24,915 nucleotides of DNA, from IMG/VR virus record IMGVR_UViG_3300020171_000985, positions 1-24,915 of that record; one strand, given 5' to 3'. Source of the DNA: a virus. Positions within the stretch are counted from its first letter, which is position 1. Every line of letters begins with the position of its first letter. Shown one piece after another: positions 6,048 to 24,915 of this stretch. The notes under the pieces are model-generated. The model made no database searches. It saw only the letters and a list, made by a program, of their open reading frames with translations, and had not been told where the DNA came from. The position numbers were made by a program, and so were the translations under genes.

Positions 6048-6054
6048 AGAGAAA

Positions 6055-6984
6055 ATGAGAAAAAAAAGTATAATCTTTTTTTTATTAATAGCAATCCTGT
6101 TACCTATAATTGCCTTTGGACAGGCAATACCGCTTTATGATAAATTGCAGAAGTTGCGTGACGTTACAATATCAAGCCCACAAGACAATGAAGTCTTAAC
6201 TTACGAAACGACATCGAGTAAATGGAAAAATGAAAACCTTACTGCATATGCATTACTTGCATCTCCGACTTTTACAGGAACTGTAACTATTCCTACGCCA
6301 TTTACTCTGGGAGCAGTATCAGTTTTACCAACAGGGACGGAATTAAATTTCGTAGATGGTGTTACTTCAGCGATACAGACACAATTAGATGCAAAACAAG
6401 CGACATTAACTAATTCAGCAGGACTTGCCGCTGCTTTAGCTGACGAAACAGGCACAGGATTAACGGTATTTTCTACTTCCCCAACTTTCACCACACAGAT
6501 AACCACTCCAATTATTGCTCTGACAGGTGGGCAAATTGCTTTTCCTGCCACTGCCGCCCCTTCTGCCGACGCCAATACCCTTGATGATTATGAGGAAGGG
6601 GATTGGACACCTGGGTTGAGTTTCGGTGGAGGAACAACGGGGATAACTTATCAAACTACATATACAAAAGGTCGTTACACAAAAATAGGAAATATAGTAA
6701 TTGTAAGTGCATTCTTACAACTCACATCAAAAGGCTCATCTACGGGGGATACACTACTTACAGGACTTCCATTCACAGTATTAAATGCTTTTGGTGGATA
6801 CGCCACGGTATCACTATGGTTTGATGGAATAACATTTGCGAACCAGTTTCAAGGACGGACTGCCCTAAATACAACAACGGCATACCTTGAGGAAACTACG
6901 GAAGCGGGAACAGCAACAGCACTAACAAATGCTAATTTTGCGGATACGAGCATTCTTGTAGTTAACTGTGCATATAGAATATAA
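6055..6984 (+). CDS. Tail-fibre-like protein with signal peptide and receptor-binding-type C-terminus
   Basis: The ATG at 6055 is preferred over an upstream in-frame ATG at 5998 because it places a signal peptide (MRKKS, then hydrophobic core FFLLIAILLPIIAFG) at the very start and removes a 50-base overlap. The protein is 309 residues. The shaft has tail-fibre segments: ALLASPTFTGTV, TELNFVDGVTSAIQTQLDAK and a second SPTFTT. The C-terminal domain begins DDYEEGDWTP and continues with GRYTKIGN, LTSKGSSTG and LLTGLPFT, a pattern I know from the tips of many phage tail fibres. It likely binds a cell-surface ligand. It follows the similar 5226 gene by 7 bases, and the two may act together. Confidence 0.83.
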   Translation: MRKKSIIFFLLIAILLPIIAFGQAIPLYDKLQKLRDVTISSPQDNEVLTYETTSSKWKNENLTAYALLASPTFTGTVTIPTPFTLGAVSVLPTGTELNFVDGVTSAIQTQLDAKQATLTNSAGLAAALADETGTGLTVFSTSPTFTTQITTPIIALTGGQIAFPATAAPSADANTLDDYEEGDWTPGLSFGGGTTGITYQTTYTKGRYTKIGNIVIVSAFLQLTSKGSSTGDTLLTGLPFTVLNAFGGYATVSLWFDGITFANQFQGRTALNTTTAYLEETTEAGTATALTNANFADTSILVVNCAYRI

Positions 6985-6993
6985 GGAGGATTT

Positions 6994-7080
6994 ATGTATT
7001 CAGAACAATCAGTAATAGACAAAATTGAAGTATTAGAGGACGGACAAATCCAAGTGCGTAGGGTAGATAGGGAGGAATAA
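6994..7080 (+). CDS. 28-residue mini-ORF repeating the motif of the next gene
   Basis: A short ORF, preceded by AAGGAGGA with a good spacing to its ATG. Its core VIDKIEVLEDGQIQVR matches VIDKIEILEDGQIQIR in the next gene at residues 50-65. It ends with TAA directly before the ATG at 7081 and supplies that gene's ribosome binding site (GGGAGG). Both ORFs share one frame, so stop readthrough would join them. It may be a real small peptide, a translational leader or the remnant of a truncated duplicate. Confidence 0.5.
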   Translation: MYSEQSVIDKIEVLEDGQIQVRRVDREE

Positions 7081-7491
7081 ATGGAAAAATTATTTAGATT
7101 AACAGTAATATCATTATCCTTAATTGCTTTTCTTATTGCGAGTTTGACAATAGGGTTAATTGGAGGTAGAGTGCGTTCTTGGATATTAAATGGTTATTGT
7201 GCCGAACCAGTATATACCGAAAAAGTGGTCATTGATAAAATAGAGATTTTGGAAGATGGGCAAATACAAATAAGAATGGCGACTAAAGTATTTAAGGATG
7301 GGGTAGAAGTCGCTAAAACTTATTGGAGAACCGTTCTTGCACCTGACCAAGATTTAAGTAAAATTGTAATCGCGCCTAATATAACCAAAGAAGATGCAGA
7401 TAAAGTAAAGGCAGTGGCTAATGTGGTGTGGACGGATACTGTAAAAAAGGCATACTTGGAAGCAAAGAAGAATAATGAAATAATTAAATGA
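7081..7491 (+). CDS. Membrane-anchored small phage protein
   Basis: A 136-residue protein with one hydrophobic segment at about 8-28 (signal anchor or uncleaved signal), then a basic turn (GGRVRSW) and a soluble domain. The domain contains VIDKIEILEDGQIQIR followed by ATKVFKDGVEVAKTYWR and LAPDQDLS. I recognise this pattern from small proteins next to tail-fibre genes in other phages, where it normally lacks the membrane segment; their function is unknown to me. It lies in a run of three genes with N-terminal hydrophobic segments (5226, 6055, 7081), which suggests a shared location at or outside the membrane. Confidence 0.75.
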   Translation: MEKLFRLTVISLSLIAFLIASLTIGLIGGRVRSWILNGYCAEPVYTEKVVIDKIEILEDGQIQIRMATKVFKDGVEVAKTYWRTVLAPDQDLSKIVIAPNITKEDADKVKAVANVVWTDTVKKAYLEAKKNNEIIK

Positions 7492-7504: not shown

Positions 7505-9079
7505 ATGTTAAGAATAAAATCAGTTGATTTTGGAACAACTGGACTAACTGGCAGCGTAGGGTATAGATTAATCAATGCAACTGGATCTTTGACCTTAGCA
7601 CGAACAAACTCAGGTATTATTGCTTTTGGTTCCGGAGCATACCTTGCAGAATTTAATATCCCCGACAATTGGAGCGGAGTAGTGTTGTGGGATGATGGAA
7701 AAACACCAAGACTCTACGCACACGAATTAATTGAGAAAAGTCCAGGAACGTTCAGTTACGCAAATATAGCTTTAATACCAACCTTGGGAACACATCTACA
7801 ATCAAGGATTGATGGTAGTATCAAAAGAAATACTGGAGGAACATTCTCGTATTCACTAATTGCACAGATTGGTACACATTTATTAGGACGCATACCAGGA
7901 ACTATTAAAAAATCTATTGAGGGGACCTTCTCGTATGGCAATATTGCATTACTTCCAAGCCTTGGAACTCATTTGCAAGGTAGAATTCCTGGAAGTATGA
8001 AGAGAACAATCGAAGGGACTTTTAGTTATTCTTTAATAGCGCAAATAGGCACACATCTAAATGCTAGAATCTTTGGATCGGTACATCAAAAAGGAGCAGG
8101 AACATTTAGTTATGCTAACATAACTTTGATACCAGGATTAGGTACACATTTGCAATCTAGAATAACTGGATCCATAGCAGACGCGAGTGCGCTGGGGACT
8201 CATTTGAATAGCAGAATTACTGGAACAATGCCGTCACTTGCTGTTTTAGGAACACATCTGAACTCAAGAATACCAGGAACCGTAGCAACACGAGGCGATA
8301 TGGGAACGATTAAAGGCGCCACGTTCGACAAGACAACTGATTCGCTTGAAGCAATAAGAGATGCTTCAGCCGGAGGATCAACGCCATCATATATAGGAAG
8401 CGTCATTTGGGGAAAGATGAATCCTAACAGTTTCTCCGAATTGCCAAATACATTCGGTCAAAGAATACAAAAAATCCTTGACCGCGCATCAAGCGGGGTA
8501 GGCGGAGTCGCTGTAGCATCTCAGATTTTCAGCGAAAAAGAAAAGCAAACATTGTTCAACTGGATTAAAAGTATGATAGATAGAATATTAGCGATAGAAA
8601 TTATTGTCTCACAATTCAATCCAGAAACTAAAAAAGCAATATCACAAGTCGTAGTAGATATAAAAACAGGACAGACTAAATTACAAGAAATTCTACAAAA
8701 TTATCTAAAGACTGATGTAAAACAGAAAGAAGGAATTAAAGATAATCTGAACTTTATTGCTAACTCCTTTGAAGATATCGCGAACATGAATAAAAATGTA
8801 ACAGTTATAAAAACATCACTGATTCAATTAGCAGAAGAAATTCCAGTGTTAATTCACGAGATACCTTTAAAAAGTATTAGTTCAACAGTAACAACGAATT
8901 TCCAAGATCTTAGAAACCTTATTTCACAAAGTATTAATATTGCAAGTGATGTAAGCGAAAAACTAAAAAATAATCTGATTATTCTCGAAGAACAAAGAGA
9001 AAGCACAAAATTAACGGATAAAGTAATGCTGAGTCTTATACCAGCTGAAAAACTTAAGAAAATTATAGAGAACGAATAA
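7505..9079 (+). CDS. Fibre-like protein with GTHL repeats and helical C-terminus
   Basis: A 524-residue protein. Residues 1-78 form a small beta domain with WSGVVLWDDG, seen at the start of many phage fibre or appendage proteins. Residues 81-260 are repeats: five GTFSY blocks (81, 112, 140, 171, 199) and seven GTHL blocks (95, 123, 154, 182, 213, 231, 249), each followed by an R-I-x-G pattern. Residues of about 278-320 contain IWGKMNPNSF and NTFGQRIQKI. From about 340 the protein is mostly helical and charged, with likely coiled coil. This fits an elongated, probably trimeric, shaft or baseplate-attached fibre. There is no signal peptide, unlike its neighbours. It overlaps the phosphoesterase gene (TAATG). 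Confidence 0.8.
   Translation: MLRIKSVDFGTTGLTGSVGYRLINATGSLTLARTNSGIIAFGSGAYLAEFNIPDNWSGVVLWDDGKTPRLYAHELIEKSPGTFSYANIALIPTLGTHLQSRIDGSIKRNTGGTFSYSLIAQIGTHLLGRIPGTIKKSIEGTFSYGNIALLPSLGTHLQGRIPGSMKRTIEGTFSYSLIAQIGTHLNARIFGSVHQKGAGTFSYANITLIPGLGTHLQSRITGSIADASALGTHLNSRITGTMPSLAVLGTHLNSRIPGTVATRGDMGTIKGATFDKTTDSLEAIRDASAGGSTPSYIGSVIWGKMNPNSFSELPNTFGQRIQKILDRASSGVGGVAVASQIFSEKEKQTLFNWIKSMIDRILAIEIIVSQFNPETKKAISQVVVDIKTGQTKLQEILQNYLKTDVKQKEGIKDNLNFIANSFEDIANMNKNVTVIKTSLIQLAEEIPVLIHEIPLKSISSTVTTNFQDLRNLISQSINIASDVSEKLKNNLIILEEQRESTKLTDKVMLSLIPAEKLKKIIENE
7745..8284 (+). repeat. In-frame protein repeats with a 177-base supercycle
   Basis: Long (about 31 residues) and short (28 residues) repeat units alternate. 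The GTFSY starts are at 7745, 7838, 7922, 8015 and 8099, giving a 59-residue (177-base) period between like units. Two shorter GTHL units of 18 residues follow. The units are similar at protein level and more diverged at base level, so they are old or selected for protein structure. Confidence 0.75.
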
Positions 9080-10551
9080 TGAATAAAAACGATCTCATAG
9101 AAGAATTTAAATCAAAAATTTCAGAAAAGATAGAATTTATCTCTGCAACAGCGCAAGACCTTAATACAGCAACTGATTCAATAAATAAACTTAAAAGAGA
9201 AATTGCGTTAGTAGATCAAATTTTAGATGAAAAAACAATTCATTCAACGAAAGAATTAGCAGACTTTCTTGGATCGTCCCTCGGAAAAAATGTGTCGCTG
9301 AAAACAAAAGATGAGACAATAATGGAGTTTATGATTGACGCAAACCAGGTAAACGTACCAACTGCGTTAGATAATTTTTCTAAGAAATTCAGACCTGAAC
9401 ATGAATCCGAACCTGCTATCCTTAATCAGTGGGGATTATACTTATCTCCTCCACACGGAGAACTTATATGGTCAGGAAAAAAGAATGTGATTGTAAAATC
9501 GATACGCTTATCAAATCATATCGATGAACCAGTATACCTTCTTTCAGGAAAGTATTGTTACGGAATAATTAAGATGGGAAAATCTAGACAGATTAATCTT
9601 CGAGAATTTAAGGAACTCTCGAGCAAACATCAAATTACGGACGAAGAAAGAAGAAGGTTTTGGCCCGGGAAAGAAATCCTTTATTTATATCCGATCAATA
9701 TAATAAGACGTTGGCAGCCGCCTCGTGAATGGAAAGTGCAAAAGGGAGCGCAGATATTCGTTAAAGACGTAAAGTTCGAAGAGACATCGAACTCTGCGCG
9801 GTTTATCTTTCTTGCCAGCGAAGAAGGCGGGAATGAAGGAGATACCCATGAGGAAGAAATAGAAAAACAAATGAATGCGTATGGCGACTGGTATCGCGTA
9901 AAAGCTAATTCTCGTAAAACGTATAGATATGTAGCTCAACATCATATTCGTGGAAATTCTATACACACAGATTTAAGAATGGAAATGAACGATCACTTAG
10001 TAGGCTGGACTTTAGACACACCTGGATCTCTTGCAAATATTAAACACGATAAGTTCTTAGAACCAGTGACAGCGTCGCAAGGCATAGATTACCAGAACCT
10101 TGCGGAACGAAAGCTGGTACAACCTAAAGTCTGGCTTACTGTAAAAGGTAAAGTTCCTGCCGGAGGTATTGGCGCCACGGCGCATAAAGAAGCTGAGTTC
10201 CAGATTGTTTCCAGCGGCACGGTTAGATTCGGTACGCAGAAACATGATTTCCACGAATACTTCCTCTATCCAGAGAAGAAATGGAACCAAGAATCTACGG
10301 TTAAAGGACGATGGATAGCAGCATATATCCCGCGTCCAGCGCATTATACGAGAGCTGGTGAAGGAAAAATGATGTATGCTTTTTGGAAACCTAACGATCA
10401 ACGGCCATATGTCGAATACCAGGATTATGAAGAATCGTTAAAGAAAGCGGAAAAGGAAAAAGGGTATGTCATCTGGCAGGATCCCAATAAAGGCGAATTA
10501 AAAAAAGCAGGAGATTTCAGAGAGAATAAAAAATCTTCCTGGGTATACTAA
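9079..10551 (+). CDS. LigD-like 3'-phosphoesterase domain protein
   Basis: A 490-residue protein. Residues 1-60 are helical and probably coiled coil. Residues of about 115-215 (GELIWSGKKNVIVKS, KYCYGIIKMG, HQITDEERRRFW) resemble an ASCH/PUA-like nucleic-acid binding domain; that call is tentative. Residues of about 284-425 match the LigD phosphoesterase family. QHH at 287-289 and HTDLRME at 296-302 correspond to the metal-binding and catalytic His, Asp and Arg of that family, with one extra residue between the two His positions. Later family-like features are KVPAGGIGAT and KGRWIAAYIP. The family removes 3'-phosphates and terminal ribonucleotides before ligation. With the ligase at 2804, it reconstitutes most LigD activities on two proteins. 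It overlaps the fibre gene by one base, and no Ku homologue is present in the window. Confidence 0.82.
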   Translation: MNKNDLIEEFKSKISEKIEFISATAQDLNTATDSINKLKREIALVDQILDEKTIHSTKELADFLGSSLGKNVSLKTKDETIMEFMIDANQVNVPTALDNFSKKFRPEHESEPAILNQWGLYLSPPHGELIWSGKKNVIVKSIRLSNHIDEPVYLLSGKYCYGIIKMGKSRQINLREFKELSSKHQITDEERRRFWPGKEILYLYPINIIRRWQPPREWKVQKGAQIFVKDVKFEETSNSARFIFLASEEGGNEGDTHEEEIEKQMNAYGDWYRVKANSRKTYRYVAQHHIRGNSIHTDLRMEMNDHLVGWTLDTPGSLANIKHDKFLEPVTASQGIDYQNLAERKLVQPKVWLTVKGKVPAGGIGATAHKEAEFQIVSSGTVRFGTQKHDFHEYFLYPEKKWNQESTVKGRWIAAYIPRPAHYTRAGEGKMMYAFWKPNDQRPYVEYQDYEESLKKAEKEKGYVIWQDPNKGELKKAGDFRENKKSSWVY

Positions 10552-13076: not shown

Positions 13077-14003
13077 ATGATTGATGCAGTCCAAGTTCAT
13101 ATAGACGCAGCGCTAAGCAATTTATCGAAAGCGTTTAAGAATAATACTTTCATCGCGGAACTTGTAGCCAAAGTTGTACCAGTAGGTAAAGAAAGCGGAA
13201 TCTTTTTTACCTATGGCCGCGATGCGTTCAAAGTTCCAAATGCATATCGCGTAGATGGAACTAAATCCAATGAAGTACATTTAAAAGTAGGACAAGATAC
13301 TTATACTTGTCTCCCTTATGCTCTTAGTGATATCCTGACAGACAATGTAAGAAAGCAATGTGATCCTGCTATTAACCCCGAAGCTGATACCACAGAGTTT
13401 ATTACTGATTTAATGCTTCTACAGTTAGAAGACCTGGTTGCGACAGAAATGACGACCGTTGCAAGATACGCTAACAGCAACTATTCTACGTTATCAGGAA
13501 CTTCTCAGTGGAACGATTATTCAAACTCTAACCCGTTAACAAACATTAAAACAGGAAAAGCCAAGATACGCAGCCTTATCGGCCGCGAAGCGAATTCAAT
13601 AATCCTGCCTGGCGATGTCGCAGAAACGCTTAGTTTGCATCCTGACATCAAGGATTTAAGGAAGTACACGGATCCAAACCTTCTAACACAAGCAGGGTTA
13701 CCACCGAAAATTCTGGGCTTGACTGTCGTAGAGGCAAAGGCTACAAAGAACGCAGCATGGGAAGGCGTAACGGAAGTAATGGGATATGTGTGGGGAAAAC
13801 ATGCGATTATTCTCTATATCCCAGATAGAGTTGGTATTAAATCATTAGCGCCTTGGATAATCTTCCGCGAAACAGGGTACAGAAACACGAGGAAATGGAG
13901 AGAAGAAGCACGTAAAGGCGATATGGTTGAAGTTGAAGATAAATATGTTGTTAAAGAAATCGCCGATGAATGCGCGTATATGTTAGTTAACGTTATTGCA
14001 TAA
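13077..14003 (+). CDS. Major capsid protein, HK97-fold type
   Basis: A 308-residue protein after scaffold and decoration genes, with a strong AAGGAGAGG site. The order and layout fit an HK97-fold capsid protein. There is an N-terminal helix, a stretch with YGRDAFKVPNAYR that may be the E-loop region, and a helical spine with TEFITDLMLLQLEDL. A P-domain-like part includes NSIILPGDVAETL and LPPKILGLTVVEAKA. The C-terminus (VGIKSLAPWIIFRETG, then VVKEIADECAYMLVNVIA) matches the end of many Mu- and lambda-type coat proteins. There is no separate delta domain because the scaffold is a separate gene. It is a possible substrate for the downstream glycan cassette. Confidence 0.87.
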   Translation: MIDAVQVHIDAALSNLSKAFKNNTFIAELVAKVVPVGKESGIFFTYGRDAFKVPNAYRVDGTKSNEVHLKVGQDTYTCLPYALSDILTDNVRKQCDPAINPEADTTEFITDLMLLQLEDLVATEMTTVARYANSNYSTLSGTSQWNDYSNSNPLTNIKTGKAKIRSLIGREANSIILPGDVAETLSLHPDIKDLRKYTDPNLLTQAGLPPKILGLTVVEAKATKNAAWEGVTEVMGYVWGKHAIILYIPDRVGIKSLAPWIIFRETGYRNTRKWREEARKGDMVEVEDKYVVKEIADECAYMLVNVIA

Positions 14004-14017
14004 CACTGGAGGAAATA

Positions 14018-14305
14018 ATGCCACAAATAAAGTCTAGAGAACAATTACTTTCTGAGGGCGCTCCTTATTTCGCCAGTGGGACCTTGCGACTTTCAAGAAA
14101 TGCCGGTACTGTACGATACATAAGTTTCCCTAGTGGAAGTTTTGCCGGAACTCCGCTTCTTGTAATTAGAACAGGTTCAAGTAATCTTCCAGCAGGAACA
14201 GCAATCCCGATTCTATGCAAAACAACCGGACCAGGTAGTTTCAGAATCGGGCTTTCTTCCTATAAACAGGGAACTGTAGTCGTACATTGGCAAGCGAGAA
14301 TATAA
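14018..14305 (+). CDS. Small beta-rich virion-surface candidate
   Basis: A 95-residue protein following the major capsid gene by 14 bases, with GGAGG before the ATG. It is Ser/Gly/Thr-rich with a repeating beta pattern: GTLRLSRNAGTVRYISFP, LLVIRTGSS and a C-terminus VVVHWQARI. The end resembles in shape the H-type lectin-like modules found in phage fibres, but the similarity is weak. Its place next to the capsid suggests a head decoration or head-fibre role. The 107-residue protein at 4881 may be of the same general type. Confidence 0.72.
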   Translation: MPQIKSREQLLSEGAPYFASGTLRLSRNAGTVRYISFPSGSFAGTPLLVIRTGSSNLPAGTAIPILCKTTGPGSFRIGLSSYKQGTVVVHWQARI

Positions 14306-14326: not shown

Positions 14327-15538
14327 GTGAGAATACTTTTCTTCGCTAAAGATGCCCCGTTCGTAAACTCAGGTTACGGCAAATGTTGCCGTGAAATCTG
14401 TACAAGACTAAGCCGACTGGGCCACGACGTCGCGGTTTTCGCGACAGTAGGGAACCGGTCGGCTTACTTTTTTGAGTGGCAGGGATTAAAAATATATCCT
14501 GGTTTCGAAGATCTCTTCGGTGAAGATATCATATATGATCATTACCTGGATTGGAAAGCGGATATCTTAATTACGCAATTAGATATCTGGCCGATGAAAA
14601 AGATACACGAATTATGCCGTACCGGATTAATCAACTGGTTGCCTTATGCGCCGATAGATTCGATGCCTCCCTGTCTTGACATTACTGAACGTCTGCGATA
14701 TGCAACTCACGTAATTACAATGTGCAACTGGGGAAAAGAGCTGCTCGAAAAACAAGGAATCGAAGCTACATGTATACATCATGGAATTGATACCAAAATT
14801 TTCAGAATCATTAATGAAACAAAAGAGAAACTAAAACAGGAACTCGGGTTCTCAAAAGAATGTTTCTTAGTAGGAATGGTGCAAGCTAACCAGTTCACTC
14901 GTAAAGCAATCGAAGAACAGCTGAGAGGAGTAGCAATATTTAAAGAAAGACATCCGCAGATAGATATTAAGGTATACTTCCACACTCAAGCTAACCGCGC
15001 AGACTCATTCCATTTACCGTCATTAGTACAAATTGTAGGATTAAAAGACCATGTAAAATTTCCAAATGAATACCTGACAATAAAAGGATTTACTGAAGAA
15101 CATATGTCAAGGATATACAATGCCTTCGACGTCCTATTATCAGCAACGAACGGCGAAGGGTTTGGGTTGCCAGTAATTGAAGCTCAGGGCTGCGGTATTC
15201 CCGTAGTAGCAACTGACTGTATGTCTTTTCCTGAGCTTGTCCTGGTAGGAGGGTTGTGTAAAGTAAAAACCTGGTTTACTACGCCGTCATTACAAATAAA
15301 GGCTATACCGGATGAACAGGATATTGCAGAGAAACTATGGACAATATATAATTTAGAATATAATAAACGAGAATTACAAGACATGGCTCATTATCTCTGG
15401 AGCTGGGATTCGAAGATTATCCAGGAATGGATGCGGATCCTGGATCAGATAAGATTAAAAATAGAAAAACGGTGCCTCGCAGTACCTCAGGTGTCTAAGA
15501 AAACAAAAGAAATGGAGAAGAACATTTGCGTATATTAA
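14327..15538 (+). CDS. GT4-type glycosyltransferase, first gene of glycan cassette
   Basis: A 403-residue retaining GT4-like enzyme transferring a sugar from an activated donor. The GTG at 14327 gives the typical N-terminus MRILFFAKDAPF with NSGYGKCCREI. The C-terminal donor-binding domain has NGEGFGLPVIEAQGCGIPVV at about 275-294; the two Glu of the EGFGLPVIE motif bind the donor and act in catalysis. HHGID at 151-155 joins the two domains. The protein matches family length. A stable hairpin followed by six T lies within codons 28-49. The ribosome binding site is weak (GAGG close to GTG). It overlaps the next gene by 13 bases. The acceptor is unknown. Confidence 0.85.
   Translation: MRILFFAKDAPFVNSGYGKCCREICTRLSRLGHDVAVFATVGNRSAYFFEWQGLKIYPGFEDLFGEDIIYDHYLDWKADILITQLDIWPMKKIHELCRTGLINWLPYAPIDSMPPCLDITERLRYATHVITMCNWGKELLEKQGIEATCIHHGIDTKIFRIINETKEKLKQELGFSKECFLVGMVQANQFTRKAIEEQLRGVAIFKERHPQIDIKVYFHTQANRADSFHLPSLVQIVGLKDHVKFPNEYLTIKGFTEEHMSRIYNAFDVLLSATNGEGFGLPVIEAQGCGIPVVATDCMSFPELVLVGGLCKVKTWFTTPSLQIKAIPDEQDIAEKLWTIYNLEYNKRELQDMAHYLWSWDSKIIQEWMRILDQIRLKIEKRCLAVPQVSKKTKEMEKNICVY
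14409..14473 (+). terminator. Terminator-like hairpin inside the first glycosyltransferase gene
   Basis: A 12-bp stem (14409-14420 with 14455-14466, one G-U pair) encloses a second 6-bp stem (14429-14434 with 14440-14445) with a 5-base loop. A C and six T (14467-14473) follow at once. This is the layout of an intrinsic terminator, although the large internal loop is unusual. It is within coding sequence, so it might act as an attenuator for the cassette. Confidence 0.45.
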
Positions 15539-16464
15539 TTACAGGAATTACTGGCTTCGTAGGCTCACATTTAGCTGAGTATATGCTCAAACTAGGACAC
15601 GAAGTATTCGGAGCTGCACGGCCGCGAAGCAGTTTAGATAACTTAAGATTGTGTAAAAAAAGTATAACGATACTAGACTGCAATGTTTTAGATTACATAT
15701 CTGTATATCGAATAATTAAAGAAATAAATCCGGATATAATATTCCATCTAGCTGCGCAGTCGTTCGTTCCAACAAGCTGGAATTCTCCACAAGATACCTT
15801 CACTACTAATGTCATCGGGACGCTCAACGTCTTAGAAAGCGTGAAAGCGTTAAGACTAAATTGCATAATCCACGTAGCCGGTACCAGCGAAGAGTATGGT
15901 TTCGTAAAACCTGATGAAATACCGATAAAAGAAACCAATTTTCTAAAACCGATGTCTCCGTATGGAGTAAGCAAAGTCGCAGCTGACTTACTGGCGCAGC
16001 AATACAATTATTCTTACGGGCTTCATACAATCGTAACCCGGGCATTTAATCACGAAGGCCCGCGGAGAGGACGACAATATGTAATTAGTAACTTTATAAT
16101 TCAAGCATTACAGTCGGATATTATAAATACAGGAAACACAGAAACAATCCGCGATTTCACTGATGTCCGAGATATGGTTAAAGCATATTGGTTAGCTATA
16201 CGCGACTGCGAAGCAGGACAAGTGTATAACATCTGTTCAGAAAAAGGTGTTAAAATAAACGATTTAATTCCCATGATAGGAAGCATCTTAAAAAAAGAAC
16301 TAAAAGTAATAAGAGACAATTCGTTATTTCGGCCAAGCGATGTGCCGATCCTAATCGGTGATTGCACTAAATTTAAAAAAGAAACCGGGTGGCAACCAGC
16401 GATACCGTTAGAAACAACTATCAGAGACATGGTAGAATACTGGAAAGGAGAATTAGGAAAATGA
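15526..16464 (+). CDS. SDR nucleotide-sugar enzyme, GDP-mannose dehydratase/reductase-like
   Basis: A 312-residue extended short-chain dehydrogenase. The TTG at 15526, with GGAG 8 bases upstream, gives MRILITGITGFVGSHL with the NAD(P)-binding GxxGxxG at 7-13. The active site is present: T120/S121 in GTSEEYG and YxxxK at Y146/K150. RAFNHEGPRRG, then IRDFTDVRDMVKAYWLA are typical of GDP-mannose 4,6-dehydratase and of GDP-6-deoxy-hexulose reductase. GFVGSHL fits the reductase better than the dehydratase (usually GQDGSYL). It would provide an activated deoxysugar for the cassette. No second enzyme for the pathway is present, so the host must supply its substrate. Confidence 0.82.
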   Translation: MRILITGITGFVGSHLAEYMLKLGHEVFGAARPRSSLDNLRLCKKSITILDCNVLDYISVYRIIKEINPDIIFHLAAQSFVPTSWNSPQDTFTTNVIGTLNVLESVKALRLNCIIHVAGTSEEYGFVKPDEIPIKETNFLKPMSPYGVSKVAADLLAQQYNYSYGLHTIVTRAFNHEGPRRGRQYVISNFIIQALQSDIINTGNTETIRDFTDVRDMVKAYWLAIRDCEAGQVYNICSEKGVKINDLIPMIGSILKKELKVIRDNSLFRPSDVPILIGDCTKFKKETGWQPAIPLETTIRDMVEYWKGELGK

Positions 16465-17330
16465 GGATAGCATTTTTACAAGACTACGACGTCTTTTCGT
16501 ACCCTGGTGGCGCAGAAATGAATGATGCTGCGCATTTCAGAGAAGGGCTTAAACGCGGGCATGATTTGTTTTTAGTCAACCCGCAGACGCCATACTCACA
16601 GCCGGAGGCGTTGATAGTATCAAATTGTGTATCATTTGATAAGAAACGTTTGTCGGATATGGTAAACTCAGCACCAACTGTATTTTTCTTTCACGACTAC
16701 ATTTTCTGCAAGTATAGATTATTCTATCCGATGCTCGAGCATTGCGGGACGTGTGAAAGTTCAAAATGGTGGCTTGAACTATTTATGAAAGCAAAATTAT
16801 TAATATGGCTATCTCCGCTGCACAGAAACGCAGCGCTCGTAGCATTACCGGAATTAGCGGAAAAGAAATACGTGTTGATACCGTCTGCGATAAACCCTGA
16901 AAAGTTTTTAGGGAAAGACGTCAACCCGCGCCAAGAAGCGTATCTATCCGTAAACTCGTTATTCCCATTCAAAGGAAGAGACAACTTAATTACTTACGCA
17001 ACATTGCATCCTGATATATTATTCCATGTAGTCAGCCCTGAACCTGAACCTGAATTACCCGGGAATATGCTCGTACTTCCTCCGCAGACGTATGACCAGA
17101 TGCATAAAGTTTATCGCATGTATAAATATTATATAGAACTCCCGTCGACTCCGCAGCCATTTAACAGAACCGTTACGGAAGCGAAATTGTCCGGTTGCAA
17201 AGTAATCACTAATCAACTGATGGGCGCGGCCAGCTGGCCGTGGTTCAAAGAAAGCCCAGAAGTCATAGCGGACGAGTTGCGTAAAGCTACTACGCAATTC
17301 TGGGATGCTGTGGAGGAGGCGTTAAAATGA
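16461..17330 (+). CDS. Glycosyltransferase, GT4-like, short
   Basis: 289 residues from the ATG at 16461, which overlaps the SDR stop by ATGA; an upstream ATG at 16389 would overlap by 76 bases and give a non-family N-terminus. The start MRIAFLQDYDVFSYPGGAE is a GT4-type acceptor-domain opening (GGAE loop). The donor domain has VNSLFPFKGRDNL and, near the end, PFNRTVTEAKLSGCKVITN, equivalent to the ExxxE-containing motif. The usual EGFGLP is replaced by a weaker version. A HCGTC motif in the first domain is unusual. It is in one operon with its neighbours; donor and acceptor are unknown. Confidence 0.8.
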   Translation: MRIAFLQDYDVFSYPGGAEMNDAAHFREGLKRGHDLFLVNPQTPYSQPEALIVSNCVSFDKKRLSDMVNSAPTVFFFHDYIFCKYRLFYPMLEHCGTCESSKWWLELFMKAKLLIWLSPLHRNAALVALPELAEKKYVLIPSAINPEKFLGKDVNPRQEAYLSVNSLFPFKGRDNLITYATLHPDILFHVVSPEPEPELPGNMLVLPPQTYDQMHKVYRMYKYYIELPSTPQPFNRTVTEAKLSGCKVITNQLMGAASWPWFKESPEVIADELRKATTQFWDAVEEALK

Positions 17331-18322
17331 GAATCCTCGTTGTCTCGCATAGTTGTTGTCATCCCAGGCAGCAATGGTTTTTCCGCAAGCTCGGCAGCAT
17401 CGCTGGGCATTGCACCATCGTAGGCCCGAATAAATGGGGAAACTTGTATCTTAAAGATATGGCTATCAAAACTTTTTCAACTATCGGTCTACCAGTAGTC
17501 AGAGAAGGAGACATTTTTAATTATTTTCTCAACGGAATTGAAGAAGTAATCGATGAAATCAAACCAGATATAATTTATTGTCAGGCAGAACTAAGAGCTT
17601 TTCAGACATTAGTTACATTAAGCGCAGCAACAGACAGAGATATTCCTTTTATTGTATTCATATGGGAGAATATTTTTCCGCCTAAATCAGATGCAGAATT
17701 TGTAATATTACATAAAGCAAAACAAATCATTTGCGGAAACTTAGAAGCGAAATCGCTTATCCCCAAGAAACATCAAGAGAAATGTAGAATTATTCCGCAA
17801 GTAGGAATTGAATTAGACTACTTCAAACCTTTTTATAATATAGAGAAGAAATACGATGTGGTTTTCTGCGGCCGGCCTGTAGCTGAGAAAGGAATCGAAA
17901 TTATAAAACAAGGATGCGAAGAACTTAATTGCTCGTTAAAAATCATCCAGGGTATAGAATATGAAAAAATCCCTAAGCTGCTTTGCGAAGGAAGAATATT
18001 TGCATCGTTGCCAATCACCACTCCGACATGGAAAGAACAAAGCGGATCCTATGCTAACTTAGAAGCGATGGCATGTGGCCTACCAGTCATCACTACGCGT
18101 TGCGGCGCAATATTAGAATACTTAGGAATCGGAACAGCTGCGCATTGCGACGAAAACAATTTAGAATCATTTATAACCGTATTGAAAAGCATTGTCTTTG
18201 ATAAAGAACTTAGAAATCAAATGATTGATCTTGGATTTATAAAAGCAAAAGAATACTCAAACGAAATCATAGCAACAAAACTATTGGAGGCACTGAAAGA
18301 ATGTATATTGGAGACAAAATAA
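17327..18322 (+). CDS. Glycosyltransferase, GT4 family
   Basis: A 331-residue protein starting by ATGA overlap with the previous gene, with GGAGGAGG upstream. The N-terminus MRILVVSHSCCHPRQQ leads the acceptor domain, which has EEVIDEIKPDIIYCQAEL. The donor domain has VVFCGRPVAEKGIEIIK (the GR-x-x-x-EKG element) and NLEAMACGLPVITTRCG, the classical GT4 donor-binding motif. The C-terminal helix pair (ELRNQMIDLGFIKAKEYS) matches the closing helices of this family. It is full length with no break. It probably extends the glycan after the first glycosyltransferase. Confidence 0.85.
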   Translation: MRILVVSHSCCHPRQQWFFRKLGSIAGHCTIVGPNKWGNLYLKDMAIKTFSTIGLPVVREGDIFNYFLNGIEEVIDEIKPDIIYCQAELRAFQTLVTLSAATDRDIPFIVFIWENIFPPKSDAEFVILHKAKQIICGNLEAKSLIPKKHQEKCRIIPQVGIELDYFKPFYNIEKKYDVVFCGRPVAEKGIEIIKQGCEELNCSLKIIQGIEYEKIPKLLCEGRIFASLPITTPTWKEQSGSYANLEAMACGLPVITTRCGAILEYLGIGTAAHCDENNLESFITVLKSIVFDKELRNQMIDLGFIKAKEYSNEIIATKLLEALKECILETK

Positions 18323-18915
18323 GAATGAAGTATGTAGAAAAAAATATGCCTTTTGCTACAAGTCCAAACCGCTTTTGTCTTGATGTTGGATGTGGAGATA
18401 GGATTTATTGGGATACTATTTTAGCGCATAAATATCATTATCAAGGAATTGATCTTCTTCCGATAGAAAATTCGGTGATGCAAATAGATTTAGATAAATC
18501 TGTAGATCGGGAAAAAATAAAAAGCAAATATTCTTTGATTCTGTGCGTTGATGTATTAGAACATCTTGAGCATCCTTCTGATGTTCTGAGTTACTTAATC
18601 ACTCTAATAGAAGATCAAGGAAAATTAATTATCCATGTACCGAATAGAAACCAAACTCATGTAATGATTGAACCAGAAAAAAATGCAGGACATATTGTCG
18701 AAGGATTCAATCCCTGGGATATAAAAGAATTCTTTGAAAAGAATCTTAAAAATTCTAAAATAGAATATACGTTTGACTGGAGTGAAGCTATCGCGTGGGA
18801 CCTTGATTATATTTTAAGAAATAATATAGATCTCAACGAACCTATGCGTAAATTGCTAAACTTTGATACTGAAAAATTTATACCATACGGAATACTAGCT
18901 GTAGGAGATAAATGA
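18301..18915 (+). CDS. SAM-dependent methyltransferase, class I
   Basis: A 204-residue protein. Motif I for S-adenosylmethionine is CLDVGCGD, followed by GIDLLPIE as the acidic loop. SLILCVDVLEHLEHPSDVL and GKLIIHVPNRNQ match the UbiE/Methyltransf_11 type. It overlaps the previous gene by 22 bases; GGAGG lies 10 bases before the ATG. In glycan operons such enzymes methylate sugar hydroxyls, often capping the chain. That target is inferred from context; protein or small-molecule targets cannot be excluded. Confidence 0.82.
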   Translation: MYIGDKIRMKYVEKNMPFATSPNRFCLDVGCGDRIYWDTILAHKYHYQGIDLLPIENSVMQIDLDKSVDREKIKSKYSLILCVDVLEHLEHPSDVLSYLITLIEDQGKLIIHVPNRNQTHVMIEPEKNAGHIVEGFNPWDIKEFFEKNLKNSKIEYTFDWSEAIAWDLDYILRNNIDLNEPMRKLLNFDTEKFIPYGILAVGDK

Positions 18916-20516
18916 AAATACCTAACTTGCGCGAAATGCTTTGGTTCTCGCCGCCTGATATGGGCGGAGAAAACATATCGTCGATAATGCGTAGGTACAT
19001 AGAATACAATGGATGGAGAAAAGGAAATAATCCTGCCATAATATATTGCGGATCTGAAAGCCAATTAGAAAACGGAATGAAAGCAAAACTTGAAAATCCG
19101 AATGTACCATTCATCATGAATTTCTGGGGATGGTTGCCTGAACGGTTTATCGATATTCAATGGAGAAATCACTATCTAGCGAAAATTAAGATAATCGAAG
19201 AATACGTTGACATCATCACGGTCCCTAGCGAAATCGCACTCGAGCAACTCCTGATGTGCGGAGTAACAAAAAAGATAGAAATTTATCCTCCCGGAGTAGA
19301 TACTATAAAATTGCTTCTTGCGAAAAATGGATCCAGAAAATATCTTAAAACTCTGCCATTCGTTCTCTCAATCGGGCGCCATGTCCCTCATAAAAGTTTT
19401 CAGAGTGTAATCGAAGCGCTTAAAGAAACTAGTATTCAATATATTATTATAGGAAACGGAGAATATAAAGAAAAGTTGCTGGAATTCGCTAAAGAACGTA
19501 ACGTTCTTTTAGAGATAGTTGAAGACGCCAATGATGGAGATAAAGGAGAAATGATTTCATTAGCGAAAGTAGTTGTTGTGCCGTCAAGATACGAAGGGTT
19601 TGGTTTACCAATCGTCGAAGCAGCTACGATAAGTACTCCTGTTCTCGCTTCGCCTCTTCCAGTTTTTAAATATTTGTTCGGAGAAAACGTAGAATACTTC
19701 GAAGACATCGCTGACTTGAAAAGTAAAATAGAAAAAATCATAAATGATGAATCGTATAGAAGAAAAGTAATATTCAAAGAGGCGATACTCGGACTCAGGT
19801 ATTCTGCGATAAACCAGAGCATTCATTTAAACGATCTGTTCGTTGAAACAATAGCAAATCATTTGAAGGCAGAAATGAAAAAAGAATGCGCAAAAGGAAT
19901 AAATACGTTAGCCGATGCATACAACCTCGACGCTTTAATAGACGCTGAATATTTTAAATATCGGTTAAATCCGGGGACTACGCTATTCCACTTTAGAGTA
20001 ATTCCGTTATTACAAAACCTAACCGGTAAAACAGTATTGGATGTCGGCAGTTCTACTGGAATTTTTGCTCTGTTCATGGCTAAGGAAGGATACGATGTAA
20101 CTTGTATTGATATAGCAGAAGAATACCTTAAATTAGTAGTTGCATTGGCGGAAAAAAACGGAGTCTCTCAGAAAGTAAAAACAAAAATATGCGATGCGAC
20201 AAACCTTGAAACGGAGTTCCAAGAAAATTCATTCGACAATGTCTGGGCTGGAGAGATAATTGAACATTTCGAAGATTCTAAACTACTGATAAGACAACTT
20301 ATGAGAGTCTTAAAACCATCAGGAAGATTCTTGCTTACTGTTCCATACCAGAATGCTTGTGAAGATCCATTCCATTTAAAGACATTTGAAACAGAAGAAG
20401 ACATTAAAAAGATATTCCAGGAATTTCCGAACTTCGAAGTCAAAGAAGTAAAAAAAATCGGGAGTCCTGGAGGGAACTACAACAACTGGTTCGCATGGGG
20501 AATAAAGAATATTTAA
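18912..20516 (+). CDS. Bifunctional glycosyltransferase-methyltransferase fusion
   Basis: A 534-residue fusion. Residues 1 to about 325 are GT4-like: PGVDT near the domain junction, LSIGRHVPHKSFQSVIEAL, then RYEGFGLPIVEAATISTPVL near 225-245 with the catalytic EGFGLP motif. Residues from about 330 are a class I methyltransferase: VLDVGSSTGIFALFMA near 375, CIDIAEEY, then NSFDNVWAGEIIEHF and SGRFLLTVPYQNA. A short linker separates the two. It starts by ATGA overlap and is continuous without frameshift. Fusion suggests sugar transfer and methylation at one glycan end, perhaps a capping step. Confidence 0.84.
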   Translation: MKIPNLREMLWFSPPDMGGENISSIMRRYIEYNGWRKGNNPAIIYCGSESQLENGMKAKLENPNVPFIMNFWGWLPERFIDIQWRNHYLAKIKIIEEYVDIITVPSEIALEQLLMCGVTKKIEIYPPGVDTIKLLLAKNGSRKYLKTLPFVLSIGRHVPHKSFQSVIEALKETSIQYIIIGNGEYKEKLLEFAKERNVLLEIVEDANDGDKGEMISLAKVVVVPSRYEGFGLPIVEAATISTPVLASPLPVFKYLFGENVEYFEDIADLKSKIEKIINDESYRRKVIFKEAILGLRYSAINQSIHLNDLFVETIANHLKAEMKKECAKGINTLADAYNLDALIDAEYFKYRLNPGTTLFHFRVIPLLQNLTGKTVLDVGSSTGIFALFMAKEGYDVTCIDIAEEYLKLVVALAEKNGVSQKVKTKICDATNLETEFQENSFDNVWAGEIIEHFEDSKLLIRQLMRVLKPSGRFLLTVPYQNACEDPFHLKTFETEEDIKKIFQEFPNFEVKEVKKIGSPGGNYNNWFAWGIKNI

Positions 20517-21085
20517 TAGTCTGCACAGATGATATACGGCCAAGCACAATAAAAAAGTATTGGCAATACTGGGAATTACTAAGAAATCTTTATCCAGAGT
20601 TAAAACTTAATGCATTCGTAGTACCTTACTGGTTTGAAGAAAGCGCAGAACATATCCATAATAAAGAATTTATCGACTGGTATGAATCAGTAAAAGGTTG
20701 GGTCCAATTACATCTGCATGGTTTTGCGCATACATTTCCTCCGGAATGTACTCTAGAAAAAGAAGAACAGGAAAAACTAATAGAAAAAGGAAGTCAACTA
20801 TTGAAAAAAATATGCAAACAGGACTTTGGATATAAAGCACCCGGGTATCATTATATTGGAGCCACACTCGATGTCCTGAAGAAGTACCATATAAAATTTT
20901 TGTGTAATGAAAAAGAAATAATCTGGTTAAACGATGTCGAACCCAAGAGAGAACTTTCTTTAATAACATTAGTACAAACTCATACTAATGGAATATCGGC
21001 TGACTGTATTCATTTTATCTATGACGATCTCTCTGAATTTTTTAAAAACAAAGAATTTTTATTTCTAAACGATTTAATAACATGA
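20495..21085 (+). CDS. Polysaccharide deacetylase-like (NodB-fold) protein
   Basis: A 196-residue protein. TDDIRP at 11-16 corresponds to the TFDD metal/catalytic motif with D12 and D13. HLHGFAH at 73-79 has the HxxxH metal pair H75/H79. YKAPGY at 113-118 is the RxP-type motif. HTNG near 161 may supply the late catalytic His. It is shorter than many carbohydrate esterase 4 members and lacks a signal peptide, so it acts in the cytoplasm. It overlaps the previous gene by 22 bases. The probable role is removal of an N-acetyl group from a sugar of the cassette product; the substrate is unknown. Confidence 0.75.
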   Translation: MGNKEYLIVCTDDIRPSTIKKYWQYWELLRNLYPELKLNAFVVPYWFEESAEHIHNKEFIDWYESVKGWVQLHLHGFAHTFPPECTLEKEEQEKLIEKGSQLLKKICKQDFGYKAPGYHYIGATLDVLKKYHIKFLCNEKEIIWLNDVEPKRELSLITLVQTHTNGISADCIHFIYDDLSEFFKNKEFLFLNDLIT

Positions 21086-22017
21086 AAATATTATTTATAG
21101 CACCCTTGGAAAACCCCGAATCAACTGCCTGGCTAATCTTGAAAGCTATGAGGAATTTAGGATTAGAAGTCGAAGCAATATCTTATCGAGAATATGAGAT
21201 AGATTCGATGAACGCTGGGATATTTGATATGGTAGAAAACTACAGTTGGGATGATGTAATATTTGTTGTTAAAGGAGAAAGTATTTATCCTGAAATTCTA
21301 AGAAAAACGAAAGCCAGGAAAATTCTGTGGCATTTTGATTTTGACAGCCATACTTTAACTAAAGATTTAATAGATAAATGTTCTGTTTACAATAAAGTTT
21401 TATTAACATGTTATCCCTGGGTAGAACAATTACGCGAACTTGGCATCAACGCATTCTTTATGCCCCAAGCCACGGATCCATCGGTATATCACCCGACAAT
21501 TTTTGAACCTAAATATGCCTGTGATGTAGCGTTCATAGGATCATGGAAGCCTGGCCGCGAAGAAATATTGCTGGAATTAAAAAAAGATTTTGATTTGAAA
21601 GTTTTTGGGAACGGTTGGGATACACGATTTATGCCAGGGTACCCAGTATACTTAGATGAATTTAATAAAGTATGCAGTTCTGCGAAAGTTATTTTGAACA
21701 TTACGCCATCAAACGAATGGCCAATCTATGAAAAAACTTTCTCGCAACGAATATATATGGTAATGGCAGCTGGAGGATATCTGGTCACAGATAGAATTCC
21801 AGGTTTACCACTGAAATGGCTAGGCGTTTACGAAAACCTAGATGAACTAAAAGAAATAATTAGATCCGCAATTGAAGATAAGAATATAAGAAAACATATT
21901 TGCCAAAGTGCAAGAACAGAAATTCTTCAAAAACATACATATTACCATAGAGTAAAGGAGATAATGACATGCCACCTAAAATCGTTGCCGTATGCCCGGA
22001 AGAATACCCAGGTGTAA
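21082..22017 (+). CDS. CgeB-like glycosyltransferase
   Basis: A 311-residue protein starting by ATGA overlap. The acceptor domain has ILWHFDFDSH and VLLTCYPWVEQLRELG. PQATDPSVYHP and then VAFIGSWKPGREEILLEL plus VFGNGWD are hallmarks of the CgeB/DUF3880-type glycosyltransferases. The end contains FSQRIYMVMAAGGYLVTDRIPGL, the donor-side motif (R-x-Y/F-E-x-x-A-x-G in the family). Its 3' end overlaps the next gene by 49 bases. Members act in spore-coat, flagellin or surface glycosylation. The acceptor is unknown. Confidence 0.82.
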   Translation: MKILFIAPLENPESTAWLILKAMRNLGLEVEAISYREYEIDSMNAGIFDMVENYSWDDVIFVVKGESIYPEILRKTKARKILWHFDFDSHTLTKDLIDKCSVYNKVLLTCYPWVEQLRELGINAFFMPQATDPSVYHPTIFEPKYACDVAFIGSWKPGREEILLELKKDFDLKVFGNGWDTRFMPGYPVYLDEFNKVCSSAKVILNITPSNEWPIYEKTFSQRIYMVMAAGGYLVTDRIPGLPLKWLGVYENLDELKEIIRSAIEDKNIRKHICQSARTEILQKHTYYHRVKEIMTCHLKSLPYARKNTQV

Positions 22018-22871
22018 GTGCTGTATTTAAACACGGAGAAAAACTAGGACTTTGGGAATATCATAACGTAAGACAAGTACTGCCGGAGAACGACCTAGTA
22101 ATTCTGGGCGCCTGGCATTACTACTATAAAAACTATTTAGAAAAAAACCGGTGCATTGTATACTTAACATCCACTTTCGGACAAATGGAGTTTTCTTATC
22201 AAGGAATAGAAATAGATAATCTCGGAGAAATAGAAAGACTTTTAAAAGAAGGTAAAATTAAAGCAATCCTAGCCGGTTGGCCTGACGTAGCAGAATATTT
22301 TCAATCTAAAAAAGCTTTCTACTGTCCATATCCATTTTCTGAAGAATATATCCTAAAACAAACAAAACAAGAAACTAAAGAATATGAGTCAATAGGAATC
22401 TTCTTGCCAAACTCAGCGCGTAAGAACACGTTCAATCAAATATTAGCTGCAATAAACTCAAAAATGAAGGTCTATACCAATCTTCCATATGATTGTCCCG
22501 GGATAAAGACGGTCGGATGGCTTCCGGACCCAGAATATTATAGTCTGATAAGCAAACTGGCGATTACGCTTCACTGTACATTCACAGAATCGTTCTCCTA
22601 CGCCGCTGCGGAAAGTGTAATCTTAGGAACGATTCCAATTGTTTCACCTCAGATTGCTGCGAACCTTTCTTTGACGAATGACGTGATCTGCTGGCAATGC
22701 GATTCTGTAAAGAGTATCTTGGAAAAGATAGAATGTTTGAAAAATGTTAGCGCAGAAGCGTATCAACAAAAAATTATGATATTAAAAAATTATTTAAAAA
22801 TACGCATTTCTGAAAATTTAGACAAGACGAAAAATGTTCTTGACGAAGTAGTCAAACTAGTAGTTAAATAA
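21969..22871 (+). CDS. Glycosyltransferase-like, last gene of the cassette
   Basis: A 300-residue protein with AAAGGAG 7 bases before its ATG, supporting the start within the preceding gene. The C-terminal half has a GT4-like donor fold: VYTNLPYDCPGIKTVGWLPDPEYYSLISKL, then FTESFSYAAAESVILGTIPIVSPQIA, matching the SFSYAAAE-type motif of Gly-poor family members. The N-terminal half (GAWHYYYKNYLEK, TFGQMEFSYQG) is family-atypical and I see no clear sub-family. It ends the cassette 15 bases before the neck-region genes. Confidence 0.75.
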   Translation: MPPKIVAVCPEEYPGVSAVFKHGEKLGLWEYHNVRQVLPENDLVILGAWHYYYKNYLEKNRCIVYLTSTFGQMEFSYQGIEIDNLGEIERLLKEGKIKAILAGWPDVAEYFQSKKAFYCPYPFSEEYILKQTKQETKEYESIGIFLPNSARKNTFNQILAAINSKMKVYTNLPYDCPGIKTVGWLPDPEYYSLISKLAITLHCTFTESFSYAAAESVILGTIPIVSPQIAANLSLTNDVICWQCDSVKSILEKIECLKNVSAEAYQQKIMILKNYLKIRISENLDKTKNVLDEVVKLVVK

Positions 22872-22886
22872 ACCAAAGGAGGAACC

Positions 22887-23288
22887 ATGGCAAAGTACAA
22901 AACGAAGTCGCTTTTAATCCATAACAATGCAGAATACCCAACTGGCTCAATCGTAGAGATGACTCCAGACGAAGCAAAACAGGCACTAGATATGGGAGTC
23001 ATCGAAGCCACAAGAGAAGAAGTCCCTCCGCAGCAAGAAGAAAAAATAGTCGATAAATTCTCAGCTCCCTCATCCGTACCGGAAATTGAGAAAGCAGTCG
23101 TCAGCGCAACTTTAGCACCCGAGAAACGCGGCCGGTGCCCTAAATGCAAAGTCGAACGAGAAATAAGGAATCCGCAAGTATCGCAAAGCGCTAAAGGCGT
23201 GATACATTTAATGGGGGAATGCGGAGTTTGTGGTACTAGAATTTCTAGAATGGCCGGAAGAGTAAAGATAGAGAAAGAAAAAATTTAA
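22887..23288 (+). CDS. DUF5679-like zinc-ribbon protein with phage N-terminal domain
   Basis: A 133-residue protein with AAAGGAGG before the ATG. Residues 1-42 (NAEYPTGSIVEMTPDEAKQ, then MGVIEA) look like a short domain common in phage neck or capsid-adjacent proteins. A Pro/Glu-rich linker follows. The C-terminal domain has CPKC at 84-87 and CGVC at 112-115 with NPQ and ISRMAG, very like the DUF5679 zinc ribbon. DUF5679 is of unknown function and is known to me from uncultivated bacteria, archaea and large phages. Its place after the glycan cassette begins the neck module. Confidence 0.75.
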   Translation: MAKYKTKSLLIHNNAEYPTGSIVEMTPDEAKQALDMGVIEATREEVPPQQEEKIVDKFSAPSSVPEIEKAVVSATLAPEKRGRCPKCKVEREIRNPQVSQSAKGVIHLMGECGVCGTRISRMAGRVKIEKEKI

Positions 23289-24268: not shown

Positions 24269-24488
24269 AGGTGGAAAGCGAATCAGATTAGTAGGTGGCC
24301 CTGGAGACGGCGTAATTTTTGTTGCTTCAGGAAAGATGGGTGCCTTGAAGTATGAAGTCGATGGACAAGAATATTATTATAAACGAGTTGGTTTAAGTGA
24401 TGGTAGACATGAGTTATTTTCTTTCTTGGGAAAAGAAACTTCTCAAAAAATGAAGGAGGACCCTCAATGTATGGCACAATACCAGTAA
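24243..24488 (+). CDS. Small hypothetical phage protein
   Basis: 81 residues from the ATG at 24243; a TTG at 24231 in frame would add four residues. The conserved-looking start is IRLVGGPGDGVIF, then YEVDGQEYYYKRVG. A GGPxDG opening followed by a short Tyr-rich beta region is familiar from small phage proteins of unknown role. No clear ribosome binding site is seen, so translation is probably coupled to the gene before, which it overlaps by 26 bases. Its own 3' end overlaps the connector gene and carries that gene's AAGGAGG site. Confidence 0.65.
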   Translation: MLKPCKQIKGGKRIRLVGGPGDGVIFVASGKMGALKYEVDGQEYYYKRVGLSDGRHELFSFLGKETSQKMKEDPQCMAQYQ

Positions 24489-24915
24489 TTAAACAATTAT
24501 TAAATCCGCGGCCAAGAGGCACAATTAGCGGAGCAATTTTTATTGGAACATCAGGCAGCGCGCAATGCGGCACGACGTTCGCAAAGAATATGCTGCTCGA
24601 CGCAGGAACATTTATCAATGGAATGATTTTTCATCGTTTCAAACTTCCTTTTACTGCAGTGCCACCAGAGATACATTTTATCGCAAACCGGTTAGCAACT
24701 GCGTATATCATACAGGCGTGTAAATTATATACCGCAGACTCAGCTTCGAACTTTCTCTACGATAAACAACAAACCTACGAACGCGAAGCAATGACGAAAC
24801 TCCAGGCTATCGCAGATGGGATAGAACTTTTAAAAGGGGTAGAAAACGAAGATGTACCGCAAACGCAATTCGGTGATTTGGAATTCGGCGTGCCAGGCAG
24901 CGTAAACGTTCGGCC
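24467..24915 (+). CDS. gp36-like head-tail connector (DUF1320-like), 3' end outside the window
   Basis: The frame is open to the last base, so the 149 residues seen are partial. AAGGAGG stands 7 bases before the ATG. After an N-terminal extension the segment AGTFINGMIFHRFKLPF, VPPEIHFIANRLATAYI, then YEREAMTKLQAIADGIELLKG matches the Mu gp36/DUF1320 pattern of helix, xRF, pro-rich turn and long helix with periodic Leu. These proteins close the head and join it to the tail. The acidic, Gly-rich end (FGDLEFGVPGS) continues beyond the window. The order after the capsid gene agrees with Mu apart from the inserted cassette. Confidence 0.75.
   Translation, partial: MYGTIPVIKQLLNPRPRGTISGAIFIGTSGSAQCGTTFAKNMLLDAGTFINGMIFHRFKLPFTAVPPEIHFIANRLATAYIIQACKLYTADSASNFLYDKQQTYEREAMTKLQAIADGIELLKGVENEDVPQTQFGDLEFGVPGSVNVR

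Follow-up and report, generated by a model that had tools for sequence, protein, structure and literature searches.

Why does a long run of sugar-modifying genes lie among the head genes of a tailed phage, and what would its products modify? The question is raised by the virus record IMGVR_UViG_3300020171_000985 (here called the window), whose whole length of 24,915 bases is a fragment of a tailed-phage genome and which carries, at 14327-22871, nine genes for glycan enzymes between the major capsid gene and genes of the neck. In our judgement, this cassette is rather probably a pathway that is expressed late and glycosylates the phage head in the cytosol, and what it most likely builds is a methylated, rhamnose-type sugar chain on the phage's own shell.

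The nine open reading frames (ORFs) cover 14327-22871 on the + strand, none of them with an internal stop, and successive ORFs overlap by 13, 4, 4, 22, 4, 22, 4 and 49 nt, with a Shine-Dalgarno-like sequence before most of them. No convincing terminator was found between the nine genes, and terminator-like sites were fewer than in shuffled sequences. Thus, the overlaps, the lack of internal stops and the lack of a convincing terminator fit one translation-coupled unit. The slot is bordered upstream by the major capsid gene (13077..14003, + strand; phrog_1005 major head protein, E=3.3e-62) and downstream by the gene of a small DUF7210/DUF5679 protein (22887..23288, + strand; Pfam).

According to Pfam, PHROGs and NCBIfam, the cassette encodes six GT-B glycosyltransferases, one short-chain dehydrogenase/reductase (SDR), two methyltransferase domains and one DUF2334/polysaccharide-deacetylase-like protein. 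The lead gene encodes a predicted GT4-type glycosyltransferase, GT1 (14327..15538; Glyco_trans_1_4, E=2e-12; phrog_2170, E=5e-29), and is followed by those of the SDR (15526..16464), of GT2 (16461..17330) and of the GT4-like GT3 (17327..18322; Glycos_transf_1, E=5e-11). Next come an S-adenosylmethionine (SAM) methyltransferase, probably a sugar O-methyltransferase (18301..18915; Methyltransf_23, E=1.3e-12), and a fusion of an N-terminal glycosyltransferase with a C-terminal methyltransferase (18912..20516; Glycos_transf_1, E=3.5e-23; Methyltransf_11, E=1.2e-18). The DUF2334-type protein (20495..21085; 29.6 bits with a cut-off of 26), GT5 (21082..22017; Glyco_trans_1_2/DUF3880, E=7e-19) and the GT-B enzyme GT6 (21969..22871; phrog_4356, E=6e-8) complete the set, all on the + strand. 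The preliminary description of this DNA had claimed both the nine-gene arrangement between capsid and neck genes and this count of domains; both were borne out, with nine intact ORFs, the flanks as described and the deacetylase identified at family level only.

GT2 and GT6 are the two glycosyltransferases that are weakly matched by hidden Markov models. The ORF of GT2 is listed from 16389, but the gene probably starts at ATG 16461, where an ATGA overlaps the SDR stop. Profile matches of GT2 are to GT4 enzymes, and an AlphaFold2 model built from five aligned loci (pLDDT 80.7, pTM 0.82) has PimA as its best match in the PDB (E=7e-10), so that assignment as a GT-B, GT4-type enzyme is supported by the model. 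The EX7E motif takes the canonical form EGFGLPxxE in GT1 and in the fusion protein and reads ESFSYAAAE in GT6. In GT2, GT3 and GT5, there is no clear EX7E at the usual place, and their activity is therefore less certain. Searches of isolate phages with tblastn gave just remote partial matches for the fusion protein and for GT5.

The SDR gives a clue to the sugar. It matches the structure 2pk3, a GDP-6-deoxy-D-lyxo-4-hexulose reductase, over its full length at E=3.7e-77, with the next PDB match at 1.7e-50 and GDP-mannose dehydratase at 3.7e-42, and its motifs GTSEEYG and YGVSK correspond in the alignment to GSSEEYG and YGVSK of 2pk3. Since 2pk3 is by far the closest match, a D-rhamnose donor is the best predicted product, and the SDR is a probable GDP-6-deoxy-D-mannose reductase (RMD) that would make GDP-D-rhamnose. 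In the fragment, no gene product was recognised as a GDP-mannose dehydratase, and thus the host would have to supply the substrate. The presence of the SDR was rejected as evidence of cassette homology between phages, as this family is common in large cyanophages. For the DUF2334-type protein, the match to the PDB deacetylase 3qbu is weak (E=0.11), so that the assignment as a putative deacetylase is made at family level.

The family of the lead enzyme was followed across other phages. No matches were obtained when viral contigs were scanned with TerL, portal or GT1 as a single sequence, whereas alignment-based scans did find relatives; with an alignment of GT1 and three isolate-phage homologs as seed, relatives of GT1 were found in 181 viral contigs, and a search of genome contigs with GT1 gave no matches. 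Neighbourhoods were read from 80 of the 181 contigs, with neighbour genes identified by profile models. After removal of near-copies at 80% identity, 56 loci were left, and 52 of these have at least 1.5 kb of upstream DNA. A major capsid gene lies within 4 kb upstream of GT1 in 38 of the 52 (30 MCP-A, 4 MCP-B and 4 MCP-C), although all seed sequences came from among head genes. If placement were random in a genome of 40-60 kb, roughly one locus in ten would be expected to be capsid-linked. In addition, a connector gene is found 1.2 to 7.6 kb downstream of GT1 in 15 loci, in 14 of which both borders are present. The three adjoining capsid families, MCP-A (which includes the GenBank-annotated capsid of Mae-JY09), MCP-B (phrog_283) and MCP-C (phrog_10), are distinct from that of the window, which makes at least four capsid types. 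In a tree of 60 GT1 proteins, the window groups with the loci L091 and L092 (support 100/99), and 14 label changes among capsid classes are needed when "none found" is counted as one class. The tree thus mixes capsid types, and GT1 has been combined with several of them. This recurrent linkage favours the head over the fibres as the target.

Two further observations concern the genes ahead of GT1. Four loci (L018, L040, L047 and L055) have a DegT-like aminotransferase (phrog_3139) upstream of it, and three of the four also carry a glycosyltransferase like GT2 of the window before GT1; none of the three modelled capsid families was recognised within 4 kb in these loci. In L010, L006, L060 and other MCP-A phages, a conserved protein of about 130 amino acids is encoded between capsid and GT1 and is a candidate acceptor or decoration protein; the one member tested had no PHROG match.

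Closer to the window, relatives were collected by a capsid-alignment scan that yielded 80 loci. In the nearest one, L091 (capsid identity 59%), the capsid gene is followed by a gene for 115 amino acids, GT1 (E=1e-156) and the start of an SDR, at which the contig ends. In L092 (52%), the order is capsid, a homolog of the 95-amino-acid protein encoded at 14018 of the window, GT1 and then unrelated genes, so that the cassette of L092 consists of GT1 alone. Relatives whose capsids are 42% identical or less pass directly from the capsid to small head genes, and among them a relative of GT1 was seen in L119 only, some genes downstream. Where the cassette is absent, as in L002 and L148, a small protein of the type encoded at 22887 comes soon after the capsid, and L002 represents an empty version of the slot. 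The cassette is hence linked and kept in the closest relatives, is missing from more distant ones and differs in length; it is an acquired module whose size ranges from a single gene to about nine. Long DNA repeats and tRNAs, as signs of a mobile insert, were searched for in the window, and neither was found. As regards conservation in relatives, on which the preliminary description had let its reading depend, the linkage stands in L091 and L092, which keep GT1 in the slot, but the full length does not, as L092 has GT1 only and the cassette is missing from most relatives in which capsid identity does not exceed 42%.

Enzyme classes, operon-like overlaps, position, the linkage of GT1 to capsid genes across families and the absence of membrane segments can be read from the sequence; from these, we infer the time of expression, acceptor, sugars, order of steps and benefit of the following pathway. 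GT1 would start or control sugar transfer to a head protein, which is the acceptor most consistent with the capsid linkage; candidates are the capsid protein, a small protein encoded at 12624 or the lectin-like protein encoded at 14018. The SDR would supply GDP-D-rhamnose from host GDP-4-keto-6-deoxymannose, the five remaining glycosyltransferases would extend the chain and the two methyltransferase domains would cap or decorate it with O-methyl groups, while the DUF2334 protein may deacetylate an N-acetyl sugar. A methylated deoxysugar would fit the enzyme set. The benefit to the phage would probably be that its surface makes different contacts or that the particle is protected. Thus, of the earlier proposal of a methylated glycan on the head or fibres, a head-linked glycan cassette with a suitable enzyme set stands and the GT1 linkage favours the head, the target of attachment being a conjecture.

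Comparable arrangements are known. In 2013, a gene insert between capsid and connector was described in the Cluster J mycobacteriophages Thibault, Omega, Optimus, BAKA, LittleE and Courthouse (PMC3706429). The window has the layout of this type, with about 8-10 genes between the major capsid and head-tail connector genes; the slot is the same, the size is similar (about 6.3 kb for Thibault gp11-gp20; PMC3706429 and the Thibault record), and both sets contain several glycosyltransferases together with SAM methyltransferases (PMC3706429). LittleE gp17 is even a methyltransferase-glycosyltransferase fusion, as is found in the window. Thibault adds a Ser/Thr kinase, whereas the window has instead the SDR and the deacetylase-like protein. 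Nevertheless, comparison of Thibault gp8-gp20 with the window proteins by phmmer gave no match at E<=10, and with no detectable similarity the enzyme sets are unrelated and the window is not placed in the enzyme lineage of Omegavirus (Cluster J). The cassette is thus a known architecture built from different enzymes, and what is new is the GT1 family, which marks the slot across capsid lineages.

Other phages share part of this picture. Cluster O phages such as Corndog carry a methyltransferase and glycosyltransferases that have been proposed to modify the capsid (PMC4351075), and glycosylated virions are reported for Che8, Corndog and Myrna (PMC12363180). Like the window, these phages encode glycosyltransferases, which lie among, or act on, their head proteins, in Corndog together with an O-methyltransferase (PMC12363180, PMC4351075). 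In contrast to the window, the Corndog genes lie between portal and protease (PMC4351075), and a Che8-like phage has its glycosyltransferases near the right genome end (PMC11256854). Furthermore, glycosylation is reported on the virions of these three phages, whereas what the window shows is glycosyltransferase genes that overlap and run in the direction of the head genes. Pontimonas phage phiPsal1 and Microcystis phage Mae-JY09 have homologs of GT1, with 29% identity across 80-96% of the query. In phiPsal1, the homolog comes directly after the capsid and is followed by a methyltransferase, a second glycosyltransferase and the neck; in Mae-JY09, it comes after the capsid and one small gene. 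Unlike the window, both have shorter cassettes and other capsid families, and the papers searched yielded no experiment on what their enzymes modify.

Outside the phages, chloroviruses glycosylate their capsid protein with cytosolic enzymes of their own, and some make GDP-D-rhamnose; in PBCV-1, A064R is a fusion of two glycosyltransferases and a methyltransferase, and the glycan has a methylated rhamnose cap (PMC7019647). Cytosolic enzymes, a glycosyltransferase-methyltransferase fusion and GDP-D-rhamnose synthesis, which is predicted in the window, are the points in common, and the best PDB match of GT1 is the chlorovirus glycosyltransferase B736L (E=7.5e-8). PBCV-1 is, by contrast, an unrelated eukaryotic virus with a different capsid fold. 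Chloroviruses serve as the working analogue for the cassette.

The enzyme classes of the cassette are also those of surface polysaccharide clusters, and individual enzymes are weakly similar to teichuronic-acid and exopolysaccharide enzymes. Hence, the target might instead be the host: a late change of the host polysaccharide would stop progeny from re-adsorbing to debris or exclude competing phages. Nevertheless, no stretch of 19 residues with a mean hydropathy above 1.8 occurs in any of the nine cassette proteins, which argues against a lipid-linked surface polysaccharide and for soluble transfer to a cytosolic acceptor. By the same scan, none of the nine is a flippase, a polymerase, a glycosyltransferase anchored in the membrane or an initiating enzyme of a lipid-linked pathway; in temperate phages, glucosylation of the gtrABC type uses a membrane flippase and anchored glycosyltransferases, and the window cassette differs in being devoid of membrane segments. 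The placement is, moreover, consistently beside capsid genes. Host-surface remodelling, raised as an alternative in the preliminary description, has consequently become less likely, with neither a membrane protein nor a lipid-linked step to serve it, and we consider it unlikely.

Several observations weigh against glycosylation of the head. Virion chemistry was found neither for this phage nor for any phage with GT1, and a literature search on phiPsal1, Mae-JY09 and S-CBS4 found no study of the genes at the GT1 locus, the phiPsal1 paper leaving the phage undiscussed. The likeness of GT1 to B736L is weak and falls within the broad GT4 family, and would fix neither substrate nor function. As for the linkage, the many capsid-linked MCP-A loci are partly one lineage and not independent, no recognised capsid gene lies upstream of GT1 in 14 of the 52 loci, and the genes of S-CBS4 are placed between portal and protease. 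Finally, in the slot of L048 (1922-7880), the connector genes are preceded by two GH42-like genes, one gene resembling class I aminoacyl-tRNA synthetases and those of a sugar ABC transporter (ATPase, permease and periplasmic binding protein); with transporter and glycosidase-like genes, the slot also takes cargo unrelated to virion glycans.

L048 leads to another explanation, namely that the capsid-connector junction simply tolerates inserts and received a transferred metabolic or surface module, in which case position would say nothing about the target. Content and length of the slot do vary, from one gene to about nine. In L076 (3180-10539), for instance, a capsid-connector cassette almost as long as that of the window, with 7.6 kb after GT1, contains glycosyltransferases and two SDRs together with a sulfotransferase and two radical-SAM genes, one of which has a B12-binding domain, and possibly makes a different, sulfated or C-methylated glycan. 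However, the recognised domains in the slot genes of 17 relatives are mostly those of glycosyltransferases, SDRs and methyltransferases: among the 48 genes of these 17 loci, Pfam recognises glycosyltransferases (13 of the GT2 type plus several others), six SDRs and three Methyltransf_24 proteins, besides four radical-SAM proteins and one sulfotransferase. The same lead family also recurs beside different capsid families, and mere hot-spot cargo is, in our view, quite improbable. That the glycosyltransferases decorate modified bases of the phage DNA is a very remote prospect: phage glycosyltransferases of such fold that act on DNA exist, as in T4, and most early genes, possibly with base-modifying enzymes among them, lie outside the fragment, but no nucleotide-modifying enzyme was recognised in the 25 kb, so that this earlier suggestion finds no support there, the cassette sits with head genes, and known DNA glycosylation makes do with less than six glycosyltransferases, a nucleotide-sugar reductase and a deacetylase-like protein.

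Between capsid gene and cassette lies the gene of the 95-amino-acid protein (14018..14305, + strand). The AlphaFold2 model of this protein, made from three sequences, is of low confidence (pLDDT 61). Foldseek places Helix agglutinins at the top (probability 0.99-1.00, but E 0.06-0.25), with SLL-2 among the H-type lectin matches; domains of phage tailspikes and pyocin fibres rank next. With VIA-align, the Helix lectins score Z 8.0, which is near the level reachable by models without true relatives. No Pfam match was obtained at E<=1. Homologs occupy the same place in L091 and L092. As a lead only, the modelled protein may be an H-type-lectin-like decoration or sugar-binding protein beside the sugar genes.

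The rest of the window is a head-gene block with all main genes on the + strand. It begins with a partial terminase and the portal, after which lie a gene for a DNA ligase, several small proteins that are fibre-like or exported, and a LigD-phosphoesterase-like gene; then come the head protease (11214, + strand), a 140-amino-acid protein, the major capsid protein, the 95-amino-acid protein and the cassette, and finally the DUF7210/DUF5679 protein, more small genes and, cut by the window end, a Mu gp36-like head-tail adaptor (24467..24913, + strand; Phage_Mu_Gp36, E=4.7e-7; phrog_195). The ligase (2804-4879) is ATP-dependent, directly follows the portal and has a weak nucleotidyltransferase-like domain upstream. 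Ahead of the protease, the gene at 9079-10551 has a LigD 3'-phosphoesterase-like motif, HHIRGNSIHTDLRMEMNDHLVGWTL, and a weak Pfam LigD_N match, and is also kept in L092. Together, the two might form a split end-joining module within the head genes. At 5226-7491, two fibre-like or repeat proteins and one small protein have hydrophobic, signal-peptide-like N-termini (peak hydropathy 1.7 to 2.7), which is unusual inside a head operon, and a 524-amino-acid protein at 7505-9079 has tandem repeats of the GTHLxxRIxGS type and no match in PHROGs.

The direct evidence located for sugar-coated phage heads comes from a few mycobacteriophages. The GT1 family is a sequence marker of the capsid-neck slot across capsid lineages and environments and could be used to predict glycosylated virions; as cultured phages, among them Microcystis phage Mae-JY09, carry it, head glycosylation is open to direct testing. 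We tentatively raise the possibility that GT1 founds a widespread, unnamed family of head-protein glycosyltransferases which, while staying beside the capsid gene, has spread among four or more capsid lineages, and that the lectin-like protein encoded at 14018 is a head decoration and carries, binds or presents the glycan. If this were true, glycosylated heads would be common among uncultivated phages and not an oddity of mycobacteriophages.

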